Assembly: GCA_002696315.1 (NCBI GenBank)
Contig: NZRR01000021.1
Location: 46,419 to 83,053 of the forward strand
Source: Methanobacteriota archaeon
Lineage (GTDB): Archaea; Thermoplasmatota; Poseidoniia; Poseidoniales; Poseidoniaceae
Reading direction: 5' to 3'
Length of the DNA stretch: 36,635 bases
Part shown: positions 22,241 through 24,882 of the stretch, piece by piece
Layout of the letters: each line of letters starts with the position of its first letter
How positions within the stretch are numbered: the first letter of the stretch is position 1
Notes under the pieces: generated by a model
What the model was told of the DNA's origin: nothing
What the model saw: the letters and a program-made list of their open reading frames with translations, nothing else
The model's database searches: none
Position numbers and translations under genes: made by a program

Positions 22241-22684
22241 TTAAGGATGATAAATAGCTGAATTTTTATCATTCTCACGAACTTCGACTTGATAGCACCA
22301 GGCTCGATTTTTTGTATTTTCCCTAATTAATTCATTAGCAAATTCATAAACAAATTTAGCAGAGAATTCAATTGAGGCGGATTTAAGGACACGAATATCA
22401 CATGCACCTTTAGATTCTAAATCCCTAAACTCGCCAAGTAAAGGGTCATCTTCAGCAAGTAATAGAGTATGATCAAACCAGTGCTCTAAAAATACCTTTA
22501 GATCCTTTAATCCCCCAAAATCAACAACCCAGCCGTGTTTATCTAATTCATTACATGCAAAATGAAAAATAAATTCCCTAGAATATCCATGAACGAAAGA
22601 GCAATGTCCCTCATTCTTCCATTGCCTATGAGCACAAGGTAGATTTCTATATGTTTTAGTCGATGTATATGATTTTGCATTCAT
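22241..22684 (-). CDS. queD: QueD-like 6-carboxytetrahydropterin synthase (PTPS family), altered zinc site
   Basis: Second step of preQ0 formation, dihydroneopterin triphosphate to 6-carboxytetrahydropterin. The 147-residue protein keeps catalytic Cys28 (GHCSF), WVVDFGGLKDLK, and the FDHT motif with Asp71-His72. Zinc ligands His19 (CAHR) and His32 are present, but the usual HGH motif reads HGY, so Tyr34 replaces the third ligand. The insertion CAHRQWKNEGHC differs from E. coli QueD and resembles a divergent PTPS branch that I recall from marine bacteria and phages (memory, not searched). Its ATG overlaps the QueC stop as ATGA, so translation is coupled. It is the last gene of the folE-queE-queC-queD operon. 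Confidence 0.85.
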   Translation of the reverse strand: MNAKSYTSTKTYRNLPCAHRQWKNEGHCSFVHGYSREFIFHFACNELDKHGWVVDFGGLKDLKVFLEHWFDHTLLLAEDDPLLGEFRDLESKGACDIRVLKSASIEFSAKFVYEFANELIRENTKNRAWCYQVEVRENDKNSAIYHP

Positions 22685-23472
22685 TTTTTACCCTCATTAT
22701 ATTTTTTTTGTATTCTTAAAGCATTATTAAGTACTACTTCCCAATCATCCACATATTCAATCGGATCTTTTCTTCCAATCGAATGAAATGCTAGTATTCT
22801 CTCTACATCTGCACCTGATTTACCTGAAGATTTACCGGAAGAATCTGGATTGTAAGAGGTAATTGTATTAGAAAATATCAAATCAAAATCAATTCCTAAT
22901 TTCTTTGTAGATTTCAAAGCTTGTCTCAAAATATAGGATTTATCATATTCTAAATAAGGCAAGTAAAAACTTACTTTATCACTATCCCAATTTCCTACTT
23001 CGAATGCATTTGCTAAAGCATTATAAAATTCAGGTCTACAATCTGGATATATTGCATGATCTCCGGAATGTACTCCTAATGCTATTCGAACATTATTATC
23101 TATCTTAATTGCTTTTGAAAGAGCACATGCATAAATTATTGATGCGAATATAGAATTACGATTTGGAACTACAGTAGATTTCATTTGTTCTTCTTCATAA
23201 TATCCTTCAGGAATTTCAATTTCACTATTAGTTAATGAACTTTCTAATAACTTAGAAATAGAATTTAGATTTACAACATCATGTCTAATTTCAAAACCTT
23301 TTTTAGACAAATATGAAATATTTTCTTTTGCTTTTTCGATCTCAATCCTATGTTTTTGACCATAATCAAAAGAAATTGCATGTATAGAATATCCATCAGA
23401 CAATAAATTTAGTAACAAGCCTGTTGAATCCATTCCCCCAGATAGAGCCATAACTGCAATTTTTGACATCAA
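22681..23472 (-). CDS. queC: QueC-like 7-cyano-7-deazaguanine synthase lacking the zinc-knuckle cysteines
   Basis: ATP-dependent conversion of carboxydeazaguanine to preQ0. The PP-loop motif SGGMDS is at 11-16, FDYGQKHRIE at 35-44, VPNRNSIF at 102-109, and GVHSGDHAIYPDCRPEF at 133-149, all normal for QueC. The C-terminal zinc site, normally SCY...CGxCxxCxxR, reads TSY at 205-207 and SGKSGADVER at 216-225: Ser206, Ser216, Ser219 and Asp222 take the four cysteine positions. The surrounding residues remain conserved (ERILAF, GxKDPI-like), so this looks like controlled replacement rather than decay. It overlaps both neighbours by ATGA junctions. The product is probably active, but this is not shown. 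Confidence 0.88.
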   Translation of the reverse strand: MMSKIAVMALSGGMDSTGLLLNLLSDGYSIHAISFDYGQKHRIEIEKAKENISYLSKKGFEIRHDVVNLNSISKLLESSLTNSEIEIPEGYYEEEQMKSTVVPNRNSIFASIIYACALSKAIKIDNNVRIALGVHSGDHAIYPDCRPEFYNALANAFEVGNWDSDKVSFYLPYLEYDKSYILRQALKSTKKLGIDFDLIFSNTITSYNPDSSGKSSGKSGADVERILAFHSIGRKDPIEYVDDWEVVLNNALRIQKKYNEGKK

Positions 23473-24068
23473 TCAACCCCCATCCATTTATGAGTTTGTA
23501 ATGAAAGGTTCCAATCTGGATTTTCTTTAACGACCTCAACTGTTTGCCTAAATGAGATGCCATTCCAAATTACATCCTTAGATTCGTCATAACAAGGTTG
23601 TAAATATAGGTGTGTGAAACCATCCTTTAATTCATCATAAATTGATAAATCTTGGCCGACATAAACACATTTTAATTCGTCACCATTTCTTTGTTTTATT
23701 GAAACATTGGGATATATTTGATCTTTAGGACTAACACATATCCAATCAAGTAATCCTGGAGGTATTTCCACAGTACCATTAGTTTCTATAGAAAATTTGT
23801 AACCACTTGGCCTTAACGATTTTATTAATGGCTCTAAATTTTGTAATGCAGGTTCTCCACCAGTAAAAATTATTTTTTTACAATTAAATTCGAAGATTTT
23901 TTGATTTATTTGAGATATTGACATTTCCTCAAATTCATCAAAATTTGTATCACACCATTCACATCTTAAATTACATCTGCCGAATCTCACAAAAATGCTA
24001 GATTCACCAGAATGAAAACCTTCACCCTGGACACTATGAAATATTTCTACTATTGGATAAGATGTCAT
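23469..24068 (-). CDS. queE: QueE, 7-carboxy-7-deazaguanine synthase (radical SAM)
   Basis: Radical SAM enzyme that contracts carboxytetrahydropterin to 7-carboxy-7-deazaguanine, the third step to preQ0. The 199-residue protein has HSVQGEGFHSGESSIFVRFG (11-30), then CNLRCEWCD with cluster cysteines Cys32, Cys36 and Cys39, and the SAM-binding FTGGEPALQ. Length and motif order are those of compact QueE proteins. The stop overlaps the QueC start by four bases (ATGA). FolE lies 8 bases upstream. No sign of degradation. Confidence 0.94.
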   Translation of the reverse strand: MTSYPIVEIFHSVQGEGFHSGESSIFVRFGRCNLRCEWCDTNFDEFEEMSISQINQKIFEFNCKKIIFTGGEPALQNLEPLIKSLRPSGYKFSIETNGTVEIPPGLLDWICVSPKDQIYPNVSIKQRNGDELKCVYVGQDLSIYDELKDGFTHLYLQPCYDESKDVIWNGISFRQTVEVVKENPDWNLSLQTHKWMGVD

Positions 24069-24076
24069 TTTAAAAC

Positions 24077-24658
24077 CTAATTTCCTTGGATTAGTTGCAT
24101 TAATTCAGCCCTAGCATCTGATTTTTCAAAAAATACACCCCTCATGGCGCTTGTTGTCATAATTGCATTTTGTTTCTTTACACCTCTACAAGTCATACAC
24201 CCATGACTACCTTCGACAATTACAGCACACCCCAAAGGAGATAGAATATTTTCCAAATCATCGGCGATACCTTTTGTGATTCTCTCTTGATTTTGTAATT
24301 TTTTAGTATGTAACTCTACTAATCTTGCTAATTTACTTATTCCAACAATTCTTTCTACAGGGATATATGCTACATGGGCTTTTCCCTTAAATGGAAGAAG
24401 ATGATGCTCACAAGTTGAATGATATTCTATATCCTTTAGTAAAACAATTCCATCATAGCCTTCAGCATTAAATGTAGATTCTAAGACTTTTTCTGCTTCA
24501 AGTGAATAACCTGTAAATATTTCTTCCCAGGATTTTACTACTCTTTCAGGAGTATCGATTAATCCTTCTCTTAATTCACCTTCATTAGGTTCTAAATATC
24601 TTACAATTGTGTCAATTGCTTTCTTAGCTTCATCTCTTGATATCTTCAAATTAATCAC
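24077..24658 (-). CDS. folE: GTP cyclohydrolase I (FolE type)
   Basis: Forms 7,8-dihydroneopterin triphosphate from GTP, the entry to both folate and preQ0 synthesis. It has the zinc and active-site residues of type IA enzymes: Cys83 and His86 in CEHHLLPFKG and Cys154 in SHGCMTCRGV, with 193 residues from the GTG at 24656-24658. A better-placed start may be TTG at 24647-24649: GGTGAT at 24654-24659 lies four bases before it, and the same GGTGAT-to-TTG arrangement starts L31e. Either way it overlaps or abuts the RHH gene stop. Archaea commonly use the unrelated MptA/FolE2; a FolE1 enzyme here suggests transfer from bacteria. Confidence 0.94.
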   Translation of the reverse strand: MINLKISRDEAKKAIDTIVRYLEPNEGELREGLIDTPERVVKSWEEIFTGYSLEAEKVLESTFNAEGYDGIVLLKDIEYHSTCEHHLLPFKGKAHVAYIPVERIVGISKLARLVELHTKKLQNQERITKGIADDLENILSPLGCAVIVEGSHGCMTCRGVKKQNAIMTTSAMRGVFFEKSDARAELMQLIQGN

Positions 24659-24824
24659 CCCCTATCCTTCCATGTCTTGTATCAATTTCATCCAACTGAT
24701 CTAATAATTTCCTACAAGCAGTTCTAATCGCATCCGCAACACTAACAAATTTATGCTGATCCCCAACATGTAATTTCAAATCATTTAGTAACTCCGCGGG
24801 CATATCTAAACTTATTTTGGGCAT
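24651..24824 (-). CDS. Ribbon-helix-helix (CopG/MetJ-like) regulator, 57 aa, first gene of the preQ0 operon
   Basis: A short frame from ATG (complement of 24822-24824) to TAA (24651-24653). It begins MPKISLDMPAELLNDLKLHV: a beta strand (KISLDMP, about 3-9), helix A (about 10-20), a turn HKFVSVADA, and helix B (about 28-46), the classic RHH layout of dimeric DNA-binding repressors, with a charged tail. Its end overlaps folE by 8 bases when the GTG start is used, so it is cotranscribed with folE-queE-queC-queD. Just upstream are a TATA-like element and a palindrome with tandem repeats. Self-regulation of preQ0 synthesis is a reasonable inference, but the DNA target is not proven. Confidence 0.78.
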   Translation of the reverse strand: MPKISLDMPAELLNDLKLHVGDQHKFVSVADAIRTACRKLLDQLDEIDTRHGRIGGD

Positions 24825-24846: not shown

Positions 24847-24882
24847 ATATAATATTACCTGAGTAATATCTGAGTATTATTA
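24847..24882. promoter_or_regulatory. Promoter and operator candidate of the RHH-folE-que operon
   Basis: Reading the minus strand, a TATA-like TAATATTATAT lies about 25-33 bases before the RHH ATG, placing initiation at or next to that codon. It overlaps the perfect inverted repeat ATATTAC-CTGA-GTAATAT (24852-24869). The 11-mers CTGAGTAATAT (24859-24869) and CTGAGTATTAT (24870-24880) also form a tandem direct repeat differing at one base. RHH repressors commonly bind tandem half-sites with such spacing. The element partly overlaps the 3' end of the ABC permease gene. Confidence 0.5.

Follow-up and report, generated by a model that had tools for sequence, protein, structure and literature searches.

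The window, a stretch of 36,635 nucleotides, belongs to a 1.71-Mb archaeal draft genome whose close relatives are Candidatus Poseidoniales / Marine Group II. Its minus strand carries the gene order RHH-folE-queE-queC-queD, corresponding to synthesis of preQ0, the archaeosine precursor, and a TGT-family gene is also encoded in the same genome. A repeat array lies in the 55-bp gap between the stop codon of an ABC-permease gene (24880-24882) and the RHH start (24824). Profile R1, derived from 71 operators with the window's own array among them, matched it on the minus strand at 24.2 bits, with E = 1.8e-6 across the window. The features are as follows.

22241-22684, minus strand: queD-like 6-pyruvoyl/6-carboxy-tetrahydropterin synthase gene
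22681-23472, minus strand: queC, 7-cyano-7-deazaguanine (preQ0) synthase
23469-24068, minus strand: queE, 7-carboxy-7-deazaguanine synthase
24077-24658, minus strand: folE, GTP cyclohydrolase I, with an 8-bp overlap with the RHH gene
24651-24824, minus strand: RHH (CdrS-like) protein of 57 aa, proposed autorepressor, with strand residues K3/S5/D7
24852-24845, minus strand: TTATATTT, a TATA-like element that precedes the RHH start codon (A at 24824) by 28 nt
24851-24881, minus strand: three-unit predicted operator, 31 bp (profile R1)
24874-24880, minus strand: operator unit 1, ATAATAC, from sequence, inside the R1 match at 24851-24881
24863-24869, minus strand: operator unit 2, ATATTAC, from sequence, the dyad centre (motif centre column 19)
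24852-24858, minus strand: operator unit 3, GTAATAT, from sequence, abutting the TATA-like element with one base in common, at the BRE location

Two departures from this gene order were observed among relatives. An insertion of approximately 1.3 kb separates folE from queE in genus g19 (L074 and L080), and a gene for a membrane protein of approximately 250 aa lies between RHH and folE in three Marine Group III loci (L177, L202, and L203), where the array still stands before RHH. This membrane protein, an ORF reading in L177, appeared NfeD-like by eye.

Read on the minus strand, the array consists of three 7-bp units, ATAATAC, ATATTAC, and GTAATAT, repeated with a period of exactly 11 bp; the full string, ATAATAC-TCAG-ATATTAC-TCAG-GTAATAT, is directly followed by TATATTTGG. 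The consensus of the units, RTAWTAY, is near-identical to its own reverse complement. The sequence-only reading had described the site as a palindrome, ATATTAC-CTGA-GTAATAT, overlapping a TATA-like element, together with an 11-bp direct repeat. Both sequences were confirmed: the palindrome is a perfect 7-4-7 structure (ATATTAC at 24852-24858, CTGA at 24859-24862, and GTAATAT at 24863-24869) that shares one base with the TATA-like element, and the 11-mers CTGAGTAATAT (24859-24869) and CTGAGTATTAT (24870-24880) lie head to tail with 10 of their 11 positions identical. The parsing was slightly refined: the site is made of three 7-bp units with an 11-bp period (up to approximately five in relatives), the palindrome being units 2 and 3 and the tandem 11-mer units 1 and 2. 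Because each unit is nearly self-palindromic, two neighbours can read as a 7-4-7 palindrome and, at the same time, as a direct repeat of 11 bp, and the palindrome is a by-product of this property.

The position of the TATA-like element is shared widely, with 53 of the 81 main-layout loci carrying TTATAT 28 nt ahead of the ATG. On sequence grounds, a transcript started at this spacing would have little or no leader, and leaderless transcripts are common in some archaea (PMC4983044). With TTATAT at -28, unit 3 falls at the BRE position and touches the TATA element; in this majority layout, the units start at approximately -57, -46, and -35 relative to the ATG. Unit 3 is often CGAATAC, which is similar to the haloarchaeal BRE, CGAAA (PMC4983044), and it may serve as both BRE and operator. 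Since its mirror image, GTATTCG, is found at unit 1, the CGAATAC variant would be part of the operator code as well.

The arrays of genera g3 and g4 (L064, L078, L090-L092, L096, L099; L014, L019, L024, L029, L039, L048, L054, L055) are located approximately one or two 11-bp units nearer the ATG, on TATA-like sequence (-29). The last unit starts at -25 in g3, those of g4 begin at -35 and -24, and the stop codon of the upstream gene extends to the array in both. In g3, the units are mostly GAATAY, and helix A of the RHH protein carries K13 and E17.

The RHH protein was present in 98 of 117 relatives. The remaining 19 lacked folE too, with the exception of two genomes whose folE is so close to the end of a contig that RHH would fall off it; in the loci examined, folE adjoins RHH. 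Upstream DNA was taken from 97 RHH loci, yielding 96 readable regions that span two families of the order. Unit-to-unit distances peaked at 11, 22, and 33 bp within 100 bp upstream of RHH, and these peaks were not found 100-200 bp upstream. A Gibbs search retrieved a three-unit motif that is dyad-symmetric about its middle unit (unit 2), with the next-best symmetry centres falling between units, as tandem palindromic units predict. At least three units at exact 11-bp steps, and in some cases four or five, were found in 90 of the 96 Marine Group II upstream regions, versus 5.6% of dinucleotide shuffles and none of 95 segments from the next 100 bp upstream (-200 to -100). The six regions failing this test comprised five from g3/g4 with shifted, degenerate arrays and one (L067) with a degenerate array of the majority type.

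Among the 81 main-layout loci, mean pairwise identity was 66% in the 31-bp array, compared with 29% in the preceding 31 bp and 33% over the last 18 nt ahead of the ATG. Synteny does not account for this conservation because the upstream neighbours vary: the ABC permease was near in 45 loci and far in 13, and no permease match was obtained in 38. The same array also precedes RHH in Marine Group III, another family of the same class, even where a gene lies between RHH and folE. Footprinting of the gap in related genomes, the check proposed along with the sequence-only reading, thus found the repeats conserved upstream of orthologous operons, in 90 of 96 regions and in Marine Group III, between random flanks. 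Outside the class, a search of 392 genomes of the phylum for RHH orthologs gave only three weak, generic matches. Two contigs labelled Rhodobiaceae (L129, CALDQY010000058.1) and Neomarinimicrobiota (L171, SCKS01000100.1) bear the Poseidoniales RHH gene and are probably mis-binned.

When the 117 genomes were searched with R1, the RHH promoter was the best site in nearly every operon-bearing genome, and all matches listed with E < 0.01 were located at the RHH promoter except for one locus. At this exception (G100 contig 13, 754-782; L225/L235), three units abut the start of a gene for a 95-aa protein with no Pfam match; array and gene also occur together in one close relative (L236, G537 C41), and 3 of the 18 genomes of its genus carry the gene, with the array preceding it in 2 of the 3. 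The listed genomes without an R1 match were mostly operon-less or belonged to g3/g4, whose arrays diverge. The only other occurrences of the two-unit pattern across the window's own genome fall within two coding regions. A regulon beyond the operon was rejected for this genome, as the other two-unit matches sit in coding sequence, and a weak match of three units ahead of queD, at 22699, scored 3.3 bits with the profile and was attributed to chance. The TGT gene of this genome was absent among the profile matches listed, and a search for bacterial promoters and terminators found none. As judged from these motif searches, the array is a local operator rather than a regulon motif.

Residues K3, S5, and D7 were invariant in all 97 RHH proteins, with V/I4, L6, and M8 hydrophobic. 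By the general pattern of RHH proteins, K3/S5/D7 would form the DNA-reading face of the beta-strand. The AlphaFold2 monomer model contained helices at residues 8-20 and 23-50 (mean pLDDT 85.6), and the N-terminal strand was not formed. The CdrS profile (NF058555) matched 20 of 20 aligned orthologs with a best E of 1.8e-5, and it aligned collinearly with the window protein at 13.3 bits versus an equivalog cut-off of 100 bits. Other RHH profiles gave E values of 0.024 (NikR) and, weakly, 0.1 (RHH_1, the best value, from one of 20 members) and 0.13 (Arc). A PDB sequence search with the RHH protein returned spurious matches only, and Foldseek and VIA-align gave no meaningful structural match for the 57-aa monomer model. 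By sequence, the protein is therefore best described as a CdrS-like RHH, a distant relative of haloarchaeal CdrS and not CdrS itself. The sole RHH_1-scoring protein of the genome (L204; G000 C16:40904-41017) has approximately 150 aa and an unrelated context, and a gene near it looks like glutamate dehydrogenase.

The analysis establishes the anatomy, conservation, exclusivity, and linkage of the array and its place on the core promoter of the operon, and the sequence comparisons support the earlier reading of it as an RHH autorepression operator. We infer the RHH protein to be the binder and its effect to be repression: it probably occupies the array, blocks TBP/TFB, and autorepresses RHH-folE-queE-queC-queD. 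In this mechanism, one RHH dimer would bind each 7-bp RTAWTAY unit by inserting its beta-sheet into the major groove, and dimers would fill the three units side by side and cooperatively. The spacing of 11 bp, approximately one helical turn, would place all dimers on one face of the DNA. The occupied array would cover BRE/TATA and thereby block recruitment of TBP/TFB, keeping the preQ0 pathway under simple negative autoregulation. Cooperativity with one dimer per unit is presumed, as would be any signal that relieves repression.

Should the RHH protein bind the array but activate, it would do so from just upstream of BRE/TATA by recruiting TBP/TFB. In most genomes, the greater part of the array is upstream of TATA, with units 1 and 2 on that side in the majority layout, a position also compatible with an activator; CdrS, the nearest named relative, mostly binds 41-110 nt upstream of starts and has been proposed to activate ftsZ1 (PMC8406309). 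We nevertheless consider activation unlikely, because unit 3 coincides with the BRE position and, in the window, has one base in common with TATA, and because the g3/g4 arrays overlap TATA-like sequence and extend towards the start codon. Since an array is tolerated on TATA in these two genera, a repressor fits better than an activator.

Another regulator encoded in trans, for example of the winged-helix type, could bind the array instead, leaving the RHH protein a bystander or active elsewhere. The linkage does not single out RHH on this point: neither the motif nor RHH occurs apart from folE, and because RHH and folE always stand together, the motif is neither statistically separable from the label "preQ0 operon" nor assignable to RHH alone. 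However, a single-site motif whose regulator is encoded elsewhere would be unusual, tandem units at 11 bp suit RHH dimers, and the reading strand of the RHH protein is invariant, which together make this explanation quite improbable.

It is scarcely credible that the repeats arose by chance in AT-rich DNA or are no more than the BRE/TATA of the promoter. A lone 7-4-7 palindrome is ordinary here, given that the AT-rich window contains 10 perfect ones versus a shuffled mean of 5.65, and the frequent CGAATAC form of unit 3 is similar to the BRE of haloarchaea (PMC4983044). A chance palindrome was nonetheless ruled out by the exclusivity of R1, the conservation in 90 of 96 regions, and the random flanks; the array is conserved in two lineages of the class, units 1 and 2 fall outside the core promoter, and the GAATAC unit of g3, starting at -25, lies on or after TATA and is not a BRE there. 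An RNA hairpin, acting as a leader attenuator or a riboswitch-like preQ0 element, has a precedent in the preQ1-type riboswitches that control such genes in bacteria, but we give it next to no weight because the element lies upstream of the TATA at 28 nt before the ATG, and transcripts from this promoter should not include it.

Beyond K3/S5/D7, the RHH protein has five residues off the DNA-reading strand, H19, C37, D48, G52, and R53, that do not vary among any of the 97 orthologs. Contact with a ligand, a metal, or a partner is possible for these positions. A speculative and rather doubtful extension would make this Poseidoniia-specific protein a sensor-repressor dedicated to archaeal 7-deazaguanine synthesis, with H19/C37/G52/R53 sensing a pathway signal such as preQ0, GTP, or the zinc that FolE/QueD require. 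If it were true, the array would be a metabolite-responsive switch, going beyond plain autoregulation.

Overall, a 31-bp candidate operator is kept across the class Poseidoniia, a group of uncultured ocean archaea, and its position relative to the start codon differs between genera by approximately whole 11-bp steps. The locus also places a CdrS-like RHH protein, of a kind known from haloarchaeal cell-division control, in a metabolic setting. In the open-access literature searched, we found no description of a transcription factor that controls archaeal preQ0/archaeosine synthesis.

The proposed arrangement is comparable with MetJ on its met boxes and with the Arc and CopG operators, in which short (pseudo)palindromic units are filled side by side by one RHH dimer each. 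MetJ boxes form an 8-bp repeat and require SAM, whereas the period here is 11 bp and the protein is without a co-repressor domain. Arc and CopG operators are examples from bacterial RHH proteins (PMC3325190). Similarities to CdrS, the nearest named family, are a small RHH gene placed just upstream of a linked gene and an invariant beta-strand. In contrast, CdrS is linked to ftsZ2, has 18 sites genome-wide, and affects cell division (PMC8406309, PMC7439475), while the RHH of the window is linked to folE and has essentially one site per genome, a count based on motifs and not on ChIP. CdrS could not be deleted in Haloferax (PMC8406309, PMC7439475), and it activates at some upstream sites (PMC8406309). 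The closest working precedent for tandem-operator autorepression by an RHH protein is F55 of the Sulfolobus virus SSV1, a protein of 55 aa whose 11-nt sequence is repeated over BRE/TSS, including at its own promoter (PMC9608457, PMC5569661). Both are tiny archaeal RHH proteins associated with multi-copy sites of this kind, and F55 represses by promoter occlusion (PMC9608457, PMC5569661); its characteristic trait, tandem units at helical-turn spacing on the regulator's own promoter, is present here. The two differ in that F55 is a viral lysogeny regulator with several targets and the consensus ATAGATAGAGT, as opposed to the RTAWTAY units of the present array. Judged by sequence, an RHH autorepressor with a tandem operator would thus be of a known kind, and its preQ0/archaeosine setting in archaea appears to be new with respect to the open-access literature searched.
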